64,000 nucleotides of DNA from the NCBI GenBank assembly GCA_963920705.1, contig OY987227.1, positions 8,163,602 to 8,227,601 on the forward strand, written 5' to 3'. Of this stretch, positions 5,591-50,457 are shown piece by piece. The notes below the pieces were generated by a model. It made no database searches, had not been told where the DNA came from, and saw only the letters and a list, made by a program, of their open reading frames with translations. Each line of letters begins with the position of its first letter. Position 1 is the first letter of the stretch. This DNA comes from Odiellus spinosus (taxonomy: Eukaryota > Arthropoda > Arachnida > Opiliones > Phalangiidae). The translations under genes and the position numbers were made by a program.

Positions 5591-5603
5591 GTATCTTTAG
5601 CGT

Positions 5604-6370
5604 TCTAGCGCGTGTTCAGGTCGCTTTCGCGCGTTCCAGCGCGTGATAAGGTCGCTTTCGCGCGTTCCAGCGCGTGATAAGGTCGCTTTCGCGCGTTCCA
5701 GCGCGTGATAAGGTCGCTTTCGCGCGTTCCAGCGCGTGATAAGGTCGCTTTCGCGCGTTCCAGCGCGTGATAAGGTCGCTTTCGCGCGTTCCAGCGCGTG
5801 ATAAGGTCGCTTTCGCGCGTTCCAGCGCGTGATAAGGTCGCTTTCGCGCGTTCCAGCGCGTGATAAGGTCGCTTTCGCGCGTTCCAGCGCGTGATAAGGT
5901 CGCTTTCGCGCGTTCCAGCGCGTGATAAGGTCGCTTTCGCGCGTTCCAGCGCGTGATAAGGTCGCTTTCGCGCGTTCCAGCGCGTGATAAGGTCGCTTTC
6001 GCGCGTTCCAGCGCGTGATAAGGTCGCTTTCGCGCGTTCCAGCGCGTGATAAGGTCGCTTTCGCGCGTTCCAGCGCGTGATAAGGTCGCTTTCGCGCGTT
6101 CCAGCGCGTGATAAGGTCGCTTTCGCGCGTTCCAGCGCGTGATAAGGTCGCTTTCGCGCGTTCCAGCGCGTGATAAGGTCGCTTTCGCGCGTTCCAGCGC
6201 GTGATAAGGTCGCTTTCGCGCGTTCCAGCGCGTGATAAGGTCGCTTTCGCGCGTTCCAGCGCGTGATAAGGTCGCTTTCGCGCGTTCCAGCGCGTGATAA
6301 GGTCGCTTTCGCGCGTTCCAGCGCGTGATAAAGTCGCTTTCGCGCGTTCCAGCGCGTATAAGGTCGTTCC
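5604..6370 (+). repeat. 31-bp satellite array (Sat-1), 25 units
   Basis: Head-to-tail repetition of a 31-bp unit containing GATAAGGTCGCTTTCGCG and CGTTCCAGCGCGT. The GATAA marker occurs every 31 bp from 5645 to 6327 without phase slips, and there is one diverged unit at each end. Interior units are nearly identical and the edges are variant, as unequal exchange predicts. The unit matches part of the dispersed DR-1 repeat. It has no spacers, so it is not a CRISPR array. Confidence 0.97.
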
Positions 6371-6401
6371 AGAAATAAACTATGATCTAATAATTTTTTA
6401 A

Positions 6402-6547
6402 AGGCCTAAGATTACTTCTGTCTGTCACCCTGGAAACAAACTCATCCTCCAGGCTTTCTCTTGCCTTTCTACCCAAAACGGAAGCTCAGAAGGTGAGCCC
6501 ACTTCCAGTGAAACAGGCAGGTTACAGGCAGAAGAAATCCTAGGCCT
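6402..6547. mobile_element. 146-bp TTAA foldback FB-3
   Basis: The left arm AGGCCTAAGATTACTTCTG and the right arm, which reads AGGCCTAGGATTTCTTCTGC on the opposite strand, form an imperfect palindrome. Both ends abut TTAA (6398-6401 and 6548-6551), which gives a TTAA target-site signature. It starts about 30 bp after the 31-bp satellite ends. No ORF. MITE-like; a piggyBac-type origin is inferred from TTAA only. Confidence 0.75.
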
Positions 6548-6564
6548 TTAACATTTTCATTTTT

Positions 6565-6645
6565 AAGTTCCTTTTTATCGCCTCAACTTAGGAGGTATAA
6601 AATTTTGAATATGGACTTTGAATATTACATGAAAACTAAAAATAT
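6565..6645 (+). repeat. Dispersed repeat DR-2, copy 2
   Basis: Contains GGAGGTATAAAATTTTGAAT, ATGG and AACTAAAAATATAA in the same order as the 384-465 copy, with a diverged middle. The upstream CGCCTCAACTTA replaces the CGCGTGAACCC of copy 1. Confidence 0.6.
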
Positions 6646-6989
6646 AATTCATGATAACAGCATCACTTTAAAACTATTCACGTAGATACAGGACGTCACG
6701 AGCTAATAAACTAATAAAGAATTTGGGCCAAACTGGGACCAAAGGAAAAAAATGCATTATTCAACGAGTTTAACCTAAAAGAATTAGACAAATAAGGCGA
6801 GATAAAACAGTCTATATTCGAGAGACACAAAGACTGATTAATGGCGGGGAATAAAATCTTTTTGGCGTTTCAGGCGCCATATAGCATATATAGTCGCGTA
6901 GTATAGCGTGGAAAAACAATGGGGCGCCACCCCTACACTTACAAGGGACGCTAAAAACGAAACTAGATAATATTTTTAGCTTTTTCATT

Positions 6990-10800: not shown

Positions 10801-10824
10801 GTTTAACTTTAAGAGTTCTATCAC

Positions 10825-10885
10825 GTGATACGGTTGCTTTCGAGCTGTCTTTTTCTTCAAAGTACTTAATCTACAGATCCCTATC
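10825..10885 (-). repeat. DR-1 fragment
   Basis: CACGTGATACGGTTGCTTTC followed by TCTTTTTC and AAGTACTTAATC matches the end of DR-1 copies near 31925-31980 and 33355-33415. Only this end is preserved. Confidence 0.55.
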
Positions 10886-10984
10886 ATTCGATTTAAGCTT
10901 TAATCGCGTTTAACTACGACATCAAACGTTAAACATATAATTTATATATATATTTTTTTTTCGATTTTAATTTTGAAGTCACAT

Positions 10985-11045
10985 AACGCGTCATGAAATT
11001 TAGGATATAATTTTTTTAATAGTTTAAAAAAACTAAAAATATAAT
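10985..11045 (+). repeat. Dispersed repeat DR-2, diverged copy
   Basis: AACGCGTCATGAAATTTAGG followed by ATATAAT and AACTAAAAATATAATT resembles DR-2. The middle is degraded, so this is a weaker member. Confidence 0.35.
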
Positions 11046-11049
11046 TAAA

Positions 11050-12295
11050 AGATCCTCGAAAAAAAATAGTAACGAAACTTTTGAACCATTAAAAAAACTT
11101 TTTTTTTTCTAAATTCATTACCACGAGCGTTACAAATTTAAACTTTGTATGAATATGTATGTAAAATTAATTTTGGTAATTAGATCGGGGACGTGATATG
11201 GAGAATAATCCCTTTTCAAAATTAAAATTCGCAGAATTTAAAAACATTAATAATGAGAAAAGTTAAGATAAAGTTTACTCCAACTCCCATCACTGCCCAA
11301 AATTTCTTTTTTCCTACGAACCTTTTGTTTCTAAAGATTAGAGGAAAATTCTTGTATAAATATTCCAAAACAAAAGAGACTAAAAGTTTCAGCGGAAAAT
11401 AACATTGTAGGCATTTTCCGTATATAGAGAGTTCGAAATTAATCGGATATTTCAGCTTATCTCAAAATCTAAGCGCAGTTCTTTACCGTGATTAGATTCG
11501 TTCGATATAATATGCAGGGCAGCTTCGTAATCGTAGCAAACTTAACAGGATATAAACTGAGTAAACAGAATAAAGGGCGAAGACTTAAAATTGGTTCCTT
11601 AATCAATCAATGTTATACTAAACAAACTTAATGGAAGTGTATGCCTATTATTATGCAAATTAATATTTTTTTTATATCACGTTATATTCGAGAATTCCCA
11701 AAAGTGTTTCAGTATGAATTGTTGTAGGTTAGAAAATTGCTTTTCACCTTTTTTTCTTATTTCTCTGAGTCTATTTGAGTTAAAAGTTACTCTTTACCAA
11801 AGTAAACTTTTAAAAGCTATGATCGATGAATAAGAATATTTATGATATGAATAATTCAGTAAAATTTTAATTTTACCGAGAGTAGAAATAATAAAAAAAT
11901 AAGAATTATCGTCATTAAAATTTTATTTAGATTAGAAAGTTTTCTTGAATAAATTCGGAAAATTACCACTAAGTGGTTTAGCTCCTAAATAAATTAATTT
12001 TCATTTTATCAGCGGAATTATTCTAAATATGCATGTACTAAAAATTAATAAAGGGTAAACCTAACAGAATATTTAATGTGATCCTCTTACAGTAGAGTAA
12101 GATCATAGTTCCCAGTATCTCCCTACGACGGAGGAGTGTCAGTGTCTATTTGTTATTCTACTATACAAAAGAAAAATGTAATTGAAGAATCATTTTCCAA
12201 AGATGGTTGAAAAATGATTACAAATATTTATATCTGCCAATCACTTATCGTGAGAATCGGACGCTTTTTCTGGTTGGCTAGAGACTTAATTGCGT
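11050..12295. other. AT-rich non-coding stretch
   Basis: No ORF, array or foldback that I can support. Confidence 0.45.
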
Positions 12296-26654: not shown

Positions 26655-26975
26655 GAGGATGTAAGAAACGATAATTTTCGTACGAAAGGTAAGATTTTCT
26701 GGATTAAGTACTTTTACGAAAAAGACCGCGCGAAAGCGACCTTATTACTGGTTCCAGAACGCGCGAGAATCAACAGTAGACTCTACAATAGCCACACTAC
26801 CATATTGATGATGTAGTATTTTTATTTTGAAAATTTGGAAAATGGTGATTTTGAAATATATTTACTGTCACATATTTTTATAAATTTTGAATAGTTTTTC
26901 AATGTTCTTGCCGAAAATTCTACTCAATTTCCATTTGGAATTCGTGAAAAATGAGTGTCATCCTCTCTATCGTAA
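26655..26975 (+). repeat. Dispersed repeat DR-1, copy 1
   Basis: Ordered blocks are TGGATTAAGTAC, CGAAAAAGACCGCGCGAAAG, CGACCTTAT, AGAATCAACAGTAGACTCT, GATGATGTAGTATT, ATGGTGATTTTGAAA and AATTTCCATTTGGAATTCG. They match three other copies (31687-31980 and 33120-33455 reversed, 49768-50110 same strand). There are no terminal inverted repeats, poly-A tail or ORF, so the class is unresolved. The CGCGCGAAAGCGACCTTAT block is the reverse complement of the Sat-1 unit core. Confidence 0.85.
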
Positions 26976-30629: not shown

Positions 30630-31680
30630 AAGCGCGGGCTTTCTCGAGATAATAAAGGCAGCTAGCTTCAAAACAAAGAGAAAAGAGGATTTTAGGTAGA
30701 AACGAGAGAAGCTTCGAGGTTTCCATAGAGAATGAGATAAAGAAGGGGGAGCGGAGTTAAAGGCGAGGGGTCGGGGGTCAGAGGGGGTGAAAAAGAGGAG
30801 AAGACTTTGGACCCTCAAAATGCTTCTCGGCTTTAATTAAAATTCTGCCAGGGCCAGAACGCATTACAATACATCACGGAAACTAAGAGAAAAGACTTAA
30901 AATATACAGAGCTTGAGCCATTCTACGTAGAAAAGAGCCCAGCATTGAGAGCTATAAGGGTTAACAGGGAAATAAAACACCATTATTCAGGAGGACAACC
31001 TCATCTCTCCACCCCGACCACTATCCCTTCATGGAAGCCCGCTTCTATCACTAAAATGCAATCTTAGAAAGCAGCCGGTTAAAGAGAGGGTTAAATAGAT
31101 TATATTTAAAGATAATATCATATTTTATCTAAATTATTTTAAACTTCTGTTTTCGGTTATAGTTAGTTGAATAAATGATGTAGATCGAAGGTTCTTGTAA
31201 AGGAAACCAATATTGGTTAATTATATAAAGGGGTAAAGAGGATAATTAACAATACGTTAATTAGCTCGATATAAGTGGACATACGTAAAGGGAAAATGTA
31301 TCACGAAAAATAGGAAGGTTTATTATTTTACTACCGCTATAATGTTTAATGATGTGGTGACTTTAATCTCTAGTGTTCTACGCTCATAGGTGAAATAAAA
31401 TTTAGCCAATAGAAAATCGTAATTATTTTAGTATGGGAATAAATTGGGTAAAAACAGTTCATTGTGCTTTTCATCCTTCCTTAAGGCTATTTATAAATTA
31501 TCTATATTATAATTTGTCGTGATTGGGCTAAACTTGGGTTGATTTGGGTTTAATGTAAAAGTAAGTACTAGGTTAAACCTTGATTGATTCTACGCTGTAA
31601 TTGGCCGCCGATTTATTATTTTTGAATTGAAGTAAATTATGTTTGTAAATTTTCTTTTCAAGTGCTTTAAATAACTTAAA
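30630..31680. other. Non-coding stretch, G-rich at its start
   Basis: A G-rich patch at 30745-30787 has several G-runs but one loop is too long for a canonical quadruplex. The rest is AT-rich with no recognised gene. Confidence 0.4.
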
Positions 31681-31686
31681 AATAAG

Positions 31687-31980
31687 ATTTCACGGATTTT
31701 CCATCAACTACAAATGGAAATTGAGTAGAATTTCATAAAGATCGTTAAAAACGATTCAAAATATATTTACAAATGTCATAGAAAAAATTACCGCGACAGT
31801 AAAAATAAATATTTTATAATCGCCATTTTCGAAATTTTTAAAATAAAAATTCCCCGCAATGCTACGTTATCACTACGGTCGCCAGGCTACTGTAGAGCCA
31901 GCAGTTGACTCTCGGGTGTTCTGGCACCAGTGATATGGCTACTTTCGCGCGGTCTTTTTCGAAAAAGTACTTCAATCCAT
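31687..31980 (-). repeat. Dispersed repeat DR-1, copy 2 (reverse)
   Basis: CAAATGGAAATTGAGTAGAA, GATCGTTAAAAACGATTCAA, ATAATCGCCATTTTCGAAAT, TTCTGGCACCAGTGATA and CTTTCGCGCGGTCTTTTTCG occur in the order expected for the reversed family. Confidence 0.88.
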
Positions 31981-31984
31981 TTGA

Positions 31985-33115
31985 AAAAAATGGTGAATGC
32001 CTCACTTTAACAATTTTATATTTTTAATCAAAACTAAACCAAAAAAAAAAAATACTTCAACGTTAATAAGTTAACTCAAAACTATATAAAATAATATTAT
32101 TCAAAATAGACTATATATTAGATCAATTTCTAAAACGTAAAAAAATTTGAATTTAAATTCTTAATAAATTAAAATGAAACTTCAAGGAAATAAAAAGAGT
32201 AAAAAAATTCTAAAATTTCTGGATGAGTAAAATTGAAGTAAAGATTAAAAAAAATTACAAAATGATTTTCTCATTACCCGGCGCGGAAGCTACAGTTTTA
32301 TGTCAGTTATAAGTTGCACAGTGTACAATTAAACCTCCCCTTGTTACTCTTACGGTTTAATTCGTTATAAATAAAGAGTAACGTAGTTTCGTAGGTGCTA
32401 AAAACTTAAACTGAACGGACAAAATATTGTCGTATTACTAAATGGAAAAATTTGAGAATTTTGAAAGAAGATGAAGAGTGAGGAGGAGAAAAAAGCAATC
32501 GCATTAACTCCTAAAACGACGCCCAACAAAGTTCTTTACACGAAATATCATGTACGCATTAGGCGTTAGAGCCTTGAAAGGAGATTAAATTCCCGTATAA
32601 AACCGGTTTTTCTATCGGTATTAAGACCCTTTCTAAGATCGTAACTGATTATCGTACATAGAAAGCGTGTTTCGTATCACTTTTCACGAGAATATCCGAG
32701 TTAAACACTTTTGTTCCCCCTTCGTAACTTCGCTTCCTTACAAATTTTGGCGAAGGAAACTTCATCAAAAGCTCTTTTGGAGAAACCAGGGCAACGCCGT
32801 GATGCCTCGTATATCATTACTTGGAGGGAACTAACGTTAGGGAAGCTAGAGACGGAGAACCGAGCCCCTATAGGGAGTCACCCTCGTTTAAAACCAAACT
32901 TCAAAAAGTTTGAAAAATCTTCTCGTATAATGCGACTGAATTATCTTTCCCTCTCTTCAATGGTGTTCTCGTATATACATATATATATACATCAAATAGA
33001 CCATTTAGATCGAACGTTAGAGATATAATTCTTCCCGCCTTTCAGTGTGCTAAATGATTTTTATCAGTGGTAAGTATTGGTAAATTTAAAATGTGTAAAG
33101 TAGTACGTTAAATAA
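31985..33115. other. AT-rich non-coding stretch
   Basis: No gene recognised. The 105-codon plus-strand frame at 32711-33028 has no recognisable domain and ends in TA-repeat codons, so I do not call it. Confidence 0.4.
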
Positions 33116-33119
33116 TGTG

Positions 33120-33455
33120 ATATCACAGATTTTTTTCGAACTCCTTATGGAAATTGAGTAGAATTTTCGGAAAGATCGTTAAAAACGATTCAAAATATAT
33201 ATACATATGTCTTAGAACAAAATTACCGCCTCAGTAAAAAAAAAAAAAAAAAAAAAAAAAAACATTTTATAATCGCCATTTTGTAAATTATTACATCATC
33301 ACTAAGGTCGCCTGGTTATTTTAGAGCTTACAGTAGATTCTCGGGCGTTCTGATACAAGTGATAAGGTCGCTTTTGCGCGGTCTTTTTCGTAAAAGTACT
33401 TAATCCAGAAAGTCCTACAATTCGTATCAAAATTATCATTAATTACGTCATATAT
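33120..33455 (-). repeat. Dispersed repeat DR-1, copy 3 (reverse), with A27 insertion
   Basis: Same block order as 31687-31980, including GATAAGGTCGCTTTTGCGCG near 33360 and CTTAATCCAGAAAGTCCTAC. An uninterrupted run of 27 A at 33236-33262 sits where the other copies have only a short A-rich stretch before the ATTTTATAATCGCC block. Confidence 0.88.
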
Positions 33456-44332: not shown

Positions 44333-44958
44333 CCCGAAATCGCGATGACTCACCCGAAATCGCGAAAGTTTTTCCCGAAATCGCGAAAGTTTTTCCCGAA
44401 ATCGCGAAAGTTTTTCCCGAAATCGCGAAAGTTTTTCCCGAAATCGCGAAAGTTTTTCCCGAAATCGCGAAAGTTTTTCCCGAAATCGCGAAAGTTTTTC
44501 CCGAAATCGCGAAAGTTTTTCCCGAAATCGCGAAAGTTTTTCCCGAAATCGCGAAAGTTTTTCCCGAAATCGCGAAAGTTTTTCCCGAAATCGCGAAAGT
44601 TTTTCCCGAAATCGCGAAAGTTTTTCCCGAAATCGCGAAAGTTTTTCCCGAAATCGCGAAAGTTTTTCCCGAAATCGCGAAAGTTTTTCCCGAAATCGCG
44701 AAAGTTTTTCCCGAAATCGCGAAAGTTTTTCCCGAAATCGCGAAAGTTTTTCCCGAAATCGCGAAAGTTTTTCCCGAAATCGCGAAAGTTTTTCCCGAAA
44801 TCGCGAAAGTTTTTCCCGAAATCGCGAAAGTTTTTCCCGAAATCGCGAAAGTTTTTCCCGAAATCGCGAAAGTTTTTCCCGAAATCGCGAAAGTTTTTCC
44901 CGAAATCGCGAAAGTTTTACCCGAAATCGCGAAAGTTTTACCCGAAATCGCGAAAGTT
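44333..44958 (+). repeat. 21-bp satellite array (Sat-6), 29 phased units
   Basis: CCCGAAATCGCGAAAG followed by TTTTT repeats every 21 bp from 44353 to 44941. One offset unit precedes it (44333) and TTTTA variants occur near the end. As 21 is a multiple of 3 and the unit has no in-frame stop, a 263-codon ORF (44273-45064) runs through, reading FFPKSRK repeats. Nothing outside the array supports a protein, so I treat the ORF as a by-product. Each unit contains TTTCGCGA on the minus strand. Confidence 0.96.
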
Positions 44959-47644: not shown

Positions 47645-48488
47645 ATACTTGTTATTATTTGTTACGGTACGCTTAAAAATGGATTTTAAAAATTCGTTAT
47701 TATTGTTCGTCCATATTTGCTCTCTCTCTCTTTTGGGTTATTACTCTTTGGTTAGAAATAGGAAGCTCGGATAGAAATATTTCGAATCTAAAAATATCCA
47801 CGATTCTCTCTTTCCCCCTTCCACCATCCCACGCCCCTCTGTTCCGTCTCTTTCTGCCATCCGTTCATTTTAATAATAGGAAACGTTACTTTGGAAATAG
47901 GAGCCCATGAAGTCCCGAATTAATTAGTCCACCGACGAGAGAATCTAAATTTAATACTCGAGCAACCAGAGAACTGAGGGAAAGTTAGGCTTAGCGAGTG
48001 AACTCGAGAGTTAACGAGTTACTTTTTCTATACTTATAGAACAATCGGAAAACAGTTCGAGTTTGCAACGCGCGCGAAACTATTTTTAGCCCATTATTTA
48101 TTTAAATGATCTCATCACTTTTTATCGAGGGATTATACTGTTAAGAACGTATATTTTCAATTTTACAACACTGACTTAAAGCGATTAGCTACAAAAATTA
48201 AAAAAAACATTTTCCGCTTGATGACGTATATGTATCTGGAACGTTAATATCGAAAAGTTTCGAGAGAAAGGTATGCCTTTGTTAATTATTTTGAGGAAAG
48301 ATATTGCACGAAATCAATCGTATCACGTGACAGAATGAGCGGGAATTAAGTAGCCAATCAAAGTAAATATAGCTAAGGTATGGAAAATCTCAAGGCACCC
48401 TCGCTTTTTGCATACTGACTACCGGCAGTTTCTGATTGGCCGTTTTAAATGGAACACAACATAATATTATTGGTTTTAAATATTCATC
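47645..48488. other. Non-coding stretch
   Basis: Contains a pyrimidine-rich segment near 47806-47850 and one TTAGGCTTAGCG motif near 47987. No gene. Confidence 0.4.
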
Positions 48489-48929: not shown

Positions 48930-49765
48930 TCTGGTTTAAAGCGGTTTTAGGGTTAATGTTGGTTGTTGTAATTCCATAAAAAAGGTTAGATTTTGATTAA
49001 ACCTGATAATTTTTGTCAATTTTTGAGCTTAACATTAACCAGCCATTGGCCAAATCCGTTTCTATTTTCGAATCATATCTTTATCACGTGATTTTCACCG
49101 GAAACTGTGAGCCAAAGTAAGCTTAAAGAGGGTTTTAGGCATAGTCACTCTTTTTCATTAACTATAATTTCTTTGAGCCAAGGGACAAATATATTGATGA
49201 CAAAATGAATATTTATGTTTTAAAAATTGCATCGACTCGTTATGAAACTTCAAACCCATTCTAACTAAATAATGTTTCAGTCTGAGAAGTGATCAATATC
49301 ACGGTTTAAAAGAGACTAAATTTCGTCTCTTTTAAGACCGCGACTGACTGCGAAACAGGACGAGGAAGAACTAAGACCCAAAATTGTGAAGAGATAAGGA
49401 ATTTAAAAGCTTAAATTTCTCGATGACTCGGCGATTTCTCCCAGAGTCAATCAGGATTACTCCCTTTTCAATGAAAAAAAAAGGAGGAAAATTGAGTTTG
49501 TATTCACGATAGAAAGCTGAATTAAGTGATGAAAAAGAGAGAGGAAATACTTCAAAGTTCACATACTATTAACCTATTTGTTTTATTCAATGACTTTCAA
49601 CGAACAAACAAATATATGGCTATAAATCTAGCTTCAATTTTGCTACAGAAGCAGCCTTCGTCATTTACTTTATTCCTCTGGAATGACGCGTTCTTAAGAA
49701 ACATCAAAATGAAAAGGTCAAACATATATTTTTAATTTTTTTTTAGGTATGACGTATAATTTATT
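48930..49765. other. Non-coding stretch
   Basis: No feature recognised. An isolated GACGCGTTCTTAAGAAAC near 49684 also occurs beside DR-2 at 24.94 kb. Confidence 0.4.
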
Positions 49766-49767
49766 TC

Positions 49768-50110
49768 TGGAACGTAATTAACTATAATTTTGATACGAAA
49801 GGTAGGACTTGATCTGGATTAAGTACGTTTACGAAAAAGACAGCGCGAAAGCGACCTTATCACGTGCCAGAACACGCGAGAATCAACGGTAGTCTCTCCA
49901 ATAACCACGCGACCATAGTGATGACGTAGTATTCCGTGGAAATTATTTTTAAAATTTCGAAAATGGCGATTATAAAATTTGAATTTTTACTGTCGTGGTA
50001 ATCCTTTCTATGACATATGTATATATATTTGAATCGTTTTTTAACAATCTTTACGAAAATGCTCCTCAATTTCCAATTGGAGTTCGTGAAAAATCCATGA
50101 CAGCCTCTCT
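49768..50110 (+). repeat. Dispersed repeat DR-1, copy 4
   Basis: GATACGAAAGGTAGGACTTG, TGGATTAAGTACGTTTACG, AGCGCGAAAGCGACCTTATC, CACGTGCCAGAACACGCGAG, GATGACGTAGTATT and AATTTCCAATTGGAGTTCG, in family order. Together with copy 3 it extends the family upstream to TAATTAAC/TATAATTTTGATACGA. Confidence 0.88.
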
Positions 50111-50457
50111 TTAAAGAATTTATAATATACGCGGAGTTGCAACTTTGAAAGGAACTTCAAGTCCAAGAATTCGGGGTCCCCTTTTAGGATTTAATTTAAT
50201 ATAGATATTGTTCTTCGTTTAGGTAGGTTATCCTTTAAGACGTTGGATAAAAAGAACTAGGCAAAAATAAAACTACATTGGAAATATAACTTTTCACATC
50301 CCAAAAGAGCTTATACCTCTTTTTCTTTCCAGGGATCTCCTCTTTTTTTATTACTGGGTATTTGGAGTTGTACTAGTTTTTTTTTATATTTTTTTACGGG
50401 GCGAAAGAGGTTTCTGGAAATCGAGGTTGAAGAGGACAGGGTGTATAAGAGAGGACC

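Follow-up and report, generated by a model that had tools for sequence, protein, structure and literature searches.

Sat-1, the 31-bp tandem array near the start of the analysed stretch of DNA (the window; 64,000 nucleotides, C3:8163602-8227601 in an assembly of 443 Mb and 286 contigs), very probably arose as a minisatellite within a single copy of DR-1, a MITE with many copies and TTAA-flanked ends. By size it is a minisatellite (767 bp, 31-bp unit), and the 24.8 copies of period 31 reported by TRF, with 99% matches among units, agree with the 25-fold amplification described in an earlier sequence-only reading. Between positions 5631 and 6312 there are 22 consecutive units with no differences, and the units at both edges of the array diverge, which fits homogenisation proceeding outwards from an array's middle. 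The unit corresponds to about 245-287 of the DR-1 consensus, with 86% similarity over 43 bp by BLAST against that consensus. Allowing up to 3 mismatches, the core GATAAGGTCGCTTTCGCG matched the window 28 times, against 0.05 expected by chance from shuffles, with 24 matches in the array, 3 in DR-1 copies (26729, 33361 and 49844) and 1 at 10827. Genome-wide, at up to 2 mismatches, the core matched 4,087 times, with units of arrays counted in and diverged copies missed, where the reversed control pattern matched once; the resemblance proposed from the sequence alone is thus beyond chance at this scale. Not every detail of that proposal stood. The block had been placed in all four dispersed DR-1 copies of the window, of which three match closely and the fourth (31668-31979) has 4 mismatches by eye; each of the copies starting at 26661, 31668, 33128 and 49669 does carry it singly, as described. 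The leading part CGTTCCAGCGCGT had also been assigned to the DR-1 block, where the consensus instead reads CGTTCTGGCAC(CA)GTG, and among the arrays listed it is present solely in the window array. Scans of the window for tRNA and Rfam families returned nothing, and there was no match in a plasmid collection.

DR-1 is a MITE, being short, dispersed and high in copy number, with inverted ends and no encoded transposase; the assignment follows from the inverted ends, the TTAA and the absence of a long open reading frame. The consensus of 543 bp, built from the 4 window copies and from 29 genome copies that form a biased sample as the best matches to the 49.8-kb copy, has the inverted repeat TTAAAGTGAGGCTGTCAC and its complement at its ends, and its longest Met-started and stop-to-stop frames are 48 and 76 codons, respectively. 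Both ends (up to 3 mismatches, 250-900 bp apart) were found in 15 of 30 sampled loci, 10 of which have TTAA at both ends. DR-1-like sites number in the thousands, judging by the 4,087 core matches and by 6,178 first-look candidates, of which the best 40 were scored. Among the DR-1 matches listed, 31 of 42 lay on contig C11, the query being on C3; with the best 40 of 6,178 scored, this excess may be a ranking effect. At C1:1.60-1.63 Mb, three DR-1-bearing stretches, 93-98% alike where aligned, recur at a spacing of ~13.5 kb.

The ends of the element read TTAA-AGTGAGGCTGTC, with AG (RR) termini and AGTG as the terminal motif. Judged by these termini, DR-1 is likely a member of the Kolobok superfamily, for which the available text of PMC6004289 gives a TTAA target and AG (RR) termini. 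Membership of piggyBac was rejected, the ends being AGTG rather than the CC[C/T]T terminal motif stated in the corresponding text of PMC2872659. A search of the sequences analysed for an empty site, with joined DR-1 flanks, gave one weak partial match, which was unusable. The genome contains 74 match rows for PF20700 (Mutator-like), which we take to cover Kolobok, and no DR-1-like end pair was found within 1.5 kb on each side in 10 of 10 such loci. There was one partial match for the piggyBac transposase PF13843, on C89, and no DR-1 ends were found within 1.5 kb on each side of it. An autonomous partner of DR-1 was accordingly not recognised through either family, as none of these 11 loci had a DR-1 end pair within 1.5 kb on each side.

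The window array sits inside a broken DR-1 of which only the 3' arm survives (Table 1). On its right the array runs into DR-1 3' sequence and the 3' inverted end, which upholds the earlier view that it was seeded from a dispersed element; the arm scores 118, against a maximum of 34 in 200 shuffles, and consensus positions 288-349 are missing at the array. To the left, no DR-1 5' arm was found, the best score being reached by 137 of 200 shuffles, and the left flank matched only itself. The 3' arm is interrupted by a second, 146-bp MITE, whose ends match at 17 of 19 positions and which has TTAA on each side. When this insertion is removed, one TTAA remains in register with DR-1, and the DR-1 consensus represents its empty site by comparison.

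Table 1. Positions of Sat-1 and of DR-1 copies and parts in the window, and of tandemised DR-1 segments across the genome; loci outside the window are named by contig and kb.
Feature	Position	Strand	Remarks
Sat-1 array	5600-6366	+	31-bp unit, 24.8 copies (TRF, consensus BLAST, unit list)
Host DR-1 remnant, 3' arm	6365..6671	+	Consensus 350-367, 402-506 and 3' end; interrupted by nested MITE
DR-1 3' terminal inverted repeat	6656..6671	+	AACAGCATCACTTTAA, 2 mismatches
Nested MITE including flanking TTAA	6398..6551	.	146 bp at 6402-6547, inside DR-1 remnant
Diverged DR-1-like part	10815..11073	+	Consensus 251-530, 67%
DR-1 copy	26661..26968	-	Consensus 5-350, block once
DR-1 copy	31668..31979	+	Consensus 15-311, block once but diverged; 3' end 31984-32010
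DR-1 copy	33128..33449	+	Consensus 15-352, block once
Diverged DR-1-like part	48210..48349	-	Consensus 238-384, 71%
DR-1 copy	49669..50114	-	Consensus 1-455, block once (CACGTG variant, 31-bp spacing)
31-bp arrays (1)	window, C16:11309, C11:10231, C3:9449, C16:13012, C1:32370		
31-bp arrays (2)	C13:2183, C3:27316, C11:22590, C3:23424, C12:10645, C13:1210		C3:27316 with 60-bp higher-order form
30-bp arrays	C14:17412, C1:27692		
33-bp arrays	C7:9019, C14:10527		C14:10527 with 2.3 copies, CACAAGTG variant
23-bp array	C7:16434		
81-bp array	C15:6175		
181-bp array	C1:21501		
20-bp dimer	C11:7747		Pattern match and arms; no TRF report

Across the genome, 20 loci including the window have a tandemised DR-1 segment (consensus about 245-287), a number that is a lower bound; the searches used the core, the array, junction patterns and a paired-core pattern, and the array search had the 31-bp unit as its query. 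Unit lengths span 20 to 181 bp, with 31 bp at 12 of the 20 loci, and the 81- and 181-bp units include DR-1 sequence beyond the 31-bp unit. DR-1 arms were found on both sides of the array at 10 loci, on one side at 8 and on neither side at 2, an arm being counted at a local score over 60 (failing scores were 27 to 49, and the shuffle control was made at a scoring other than that of the arm test). The arms do not always adjoin the array: at two of the ten two-armed loci one arm stands apart, the 5' arm at C3:9449 by ~300 bp and the downstream DR-1 part at C1:21501 by ~560 bp, and at C16:13012 the array lies between both inverted ends together with ~118 bp of other sequence, a locus counted as one-armed because its short 3' arm scores 45. 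These arrays are MITE-derived tandem repeats, i.e. an internal segment of the element repeated between its arms, with the window itself retaining one arm only. Several lie between 5' and 3' arms, so that the kind of locus for which the sequence-only reading had proposed a search, an array set in a DR-1 copy that is otherwise intact, does exist. Junction units carry locus-private variants, and set against some 4,000 core sites the 20 array loci amount to roughly half a percent. The recorded arrays measure from under 0.1 to 1.65 kb and fall short, in length, of the long heterochromatic arrays of classical satellites. Candidates at C2:2540829 (no TRF array), C4:21169177 (reads like ordinary DR-1) and C1:28350237 (no DR-1 match) were excluded, and paired-core arrays on C5, C6, C9, C14:346747 and C18 were judged by eye to be unrelated. 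Within C1:21500800-21504200, the 181-bp DR-1 array is preceded by a 178-bp array, whose end lies ~270 bp upstream.

Two further observations concern mitochondrial sequence in the assembly. Contig C286 is mitochondrial, with a COX1 in which TGA is read as tryptophan and whose neighbours we take to be ND2, COX2 and ATP6; its proteins resemble those of an arthropod. On C17, at ~1.1-4.4 Mb, several stretches resembling COX1 contain TGA codons in frame, and are apparently nuclear copies of mitochondrial DNA.

Within DR-1, the tandemised segment is bounded by a direct repeat, TCGCGCG, found at consensus 245 and 278 and 31 or 33 bp apart, the spacing in the shorter CACGTG allele being 31, which equals the unit length at 12 of the 20 loci. 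This seed stretch is 61% G+C, against 33% for the whole of DR-1, and in the shorter allele its predicted hairpin is the most stable in the element (-8.3 kcal/mol, where 50-base windows along the consensus average -3.1). At C1:32370 the edges of the unit fall at the seed repeat, GATTC being followed by TCGCGCGTT at one edge and TCGCGCG by GTCTTT at the other, and the 33-bp array at C14:10527 (2.3 copies) starts at the same seed in a different allele, CACAAGTG. By eye, TTC offers a possible join for the 33-bp unit at C7:9019 and CGC one for the 23-bp unit, so other short matches may also serve. Direct repeats as long or longer occur elsewhere in the consensus (four 8-bp and three other 7-bp pairs), all of them A+T-richer, and the 20-, 23-, 81- and 181-bp units do without TCGCGCG. 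GGTCTGG at the C13:1210 junctions was rejected as a second crossover point, since the first unit carries it too, and a link between the CACGTG allele and the arrays was not used, both samples having been drawn by searches that favour CACGTG and the by-eye counts (15 of 17 and 8 of 31) having failed a recount, in which 29 singles were usable.

We infer from these features a duplication by slippage or microhomology followed by local expansion. The TCGCGCG repeat and the hairpin it brackets may lead strands to misalign while DNA is replicated or a break is repaired, which could yield a first tandem duplication, either by slippage or through a microhomology-mediated event. Unequal exchange or slippage would then expand and homogenise each array locally, giving rise to private variants, and subsequent deletions and insertions would strip the arms of the MITE, as may have happened in the window, where the 5' arm was not found and a second MITE has landed. 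The paired-core pattern matched 60 times, against 7 for its reversed control, with five DR-1 loci among the matches. Pairs of one control segment, GTACTTAATC, gave 12 matches with one DR-1 case, C3:8286 (38 bp apart), and for pairs of the other, GGAAATTGAG, no DR-1 case was recognised by eye in the 100 matches listed out of 149. The comparison points to the core as the preferred place for arrays within DR-1, a statement about position within the element that draws on two control segments and a search started from the core. The window holds eleven tandem arrays, from 5600 to 56321, which cover 11% of it, so minisatellites are readily born in this genome, and DR-1 may be nothing out of the ordinary. 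A second window array (21-bp unit, 44353-44958) is bracketed by a 33-bp inverted repeat, 43492-43524/45388-45420 (30/33), and by an inner inverted pair, 43753-43773/45266-45286, for which 0 of 100 shuffles were as good; it may lie inside an inverted-repeat element.

The arrays require no fewer than four first duplications, namely those of the 81-bp unit, the 181-bp unit, the 20-bp dimer and the seed-based arrays, because the 81- and 181-bp units hold DR-1 sequence that lies beyond the 31-bp unit and the junction of the 20-bp dimer is unlike the others. A fifth is probably represented by the 33-bp CACAAGTG array, and small deletions or insertions in 31-bp arrays could account for the 23-bp unit and for that of 33 bp at C7:9019. 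The chances are slightly less than even that DR-1 is a dispersed nursery for minisatellites, each insertion being preloaded with a GC-rich hairpin between copies of a 7-bp direct repeat, and with arrays arising at this one spot repeatedly and independently. A single birth of the 31-bp arrays, in which a DR-1 already carrying a dimer or short array transposed and its descendants expanded or shrank separately, is unlikely but retains some weight. The 31-bp arrays have a common phase, the 23-bp unit and the C7:9019 unit are derivable from such an array, and the variants GTCGTTTT and GGCTCG are common to C1:27692 and C3:27316, which together with the poorly resolved host tree means that some 31-bp arrays may share a birth. 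One clade of hosts was not rejected by the AU test (p 0.379 for 12 rows and p 0.425 for six 31-bp hosts), and the array label is somewhat clustered in the tree, with 8 changes against a shuffled mean of 10.8 and 14 of 500 shuffles as low. However, the arms of hosts are no closer to one another (mean 0.77, 78 pairs) than to those of single-copy DR-1s (0.81, 511 pairs), and 13 of 14 hosts have a single as their closest row, a proportion to be read with singles outnumbering hosts 37 to 14. The near-dimers found are of 33 and 20 bp, none being a 31-bp two-unit copy with the exact core, and the 20-, 81- and 181-bp units require first duplications of their own. The arm tree (a sample of 49) is star-like with one starred branch and bootstrap values that had not settled; taken with the AU test, this makes the number of births not decidable from the tree. 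Its rows exclude S_L050 (low score), the window, C13:2183, C3:23424, C12:10645, C11:10231 and C1:21501 (<150 columns), as well as C13:1210 and C1:27692.

It is improbable that selection acting on the element promoted the amplification, for instance through extra binding sites for transposase or host factors, as the available text of Dias et al. (PMC4079207) suggests for the Tetris and Galileo repeats. All recorded unit types include at least part of the core, although the core was itself the query of the searches; its conservation (0.911) is no higher than that of the rest of the 5' two thirds (0.87-0.91), and array copies of DR-1 are rare. Less probable still, to a degree that leaves it very little room, is the reverse order of events, in which a young MITE captured a unit of an older satellite. 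Capture was proposed for miDNA4 by Scalvenzi and Pollet (available text of PMC12628747), and the 38-copy array at C11:10231 shows no DR-1 arms, but arrays are few and mostly DR-1-flanked where one-block DR-1 sites run to thousands, array edges continue into DR-1 arms, and the 81- and 181-bp units hold further DR-1 sequence. The order given in the sequence-only reading, with DR-1 first, is thus well supported by arrays lying between DR-1 arms and by 20 arrays against thousands of DR-1-like sites. A chance resemblance of unit and element can be dismissed on the core counts given above, in the window and genome-wide.

How a new satellite comes by its first tandem duplication can rarely be observed, since arrays that have matured tend to lose the traces of their birth. 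DR-1 provides thousands of one-unit sites as controls and about twenty loci that form a graded series, whose breakpoints can be compared with the intact element, so that rate, choice of breakpoint and homogenisation become measurable within one genome. If DR-1 is indeed a nursery of independently born arrays, one unit, near-dimer, embedded array and free array coexist in a single genome.

That tandem repeats inside MITEs can expand into satellites is described in the available parts of two reviews (PMC12628747, PMC9659126), where short direct repeats are suggested to be the cause. As far as the accessible accounts of each system go, there is a close likeness to Xmix, a T2-MITE of the Kolobok superfamily in Xenopus, and its repeat Xstir; like DR-1, Xmix is TTAA-flanked, has AG ends and has had an internal segment amplified (PMC6004289, PMC12628747); Xstir is called a large repeat family, whereas DR-1 arrays are short, locus-private and of several periods, and the two are likened by description. 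In Xenopus tropicalis, miDNA4 has a variable-copy array within a MITE, with short direct repeats as the proposed cause (PMC12628747), but it is of the Tc1/mariner type, unlike DR-1, whose array unit is the element's own sequence; the miDNA4 repeat is captured according to the text available from PMC12628747 and born within the MITE according to that from PMC9659126. Tetris/TIR-220 of Drosophila virilis, as its available description has it, resembles DR-1 in that transposon-internal repeats feed satellite-like arrays (PMC4079207), and differs in being a foldback element with a 220-bp unit in its inverted repeats, to whose normal make-up tandem repeats belong. For the LTR-retrotransposon satellites of Lathyrus sativus, the corresponding text likewise describes short element-internal arrays that occasionally expand (PMC7004042), although those elements are retrotransposons that already contain short arrays, which DR-1 does not share. 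The conversion of MITE to satellite is therefore already known from Xmix/Xstir and miDNA4, and it is for being unusually graded that the arrays of DR-1 stand out.
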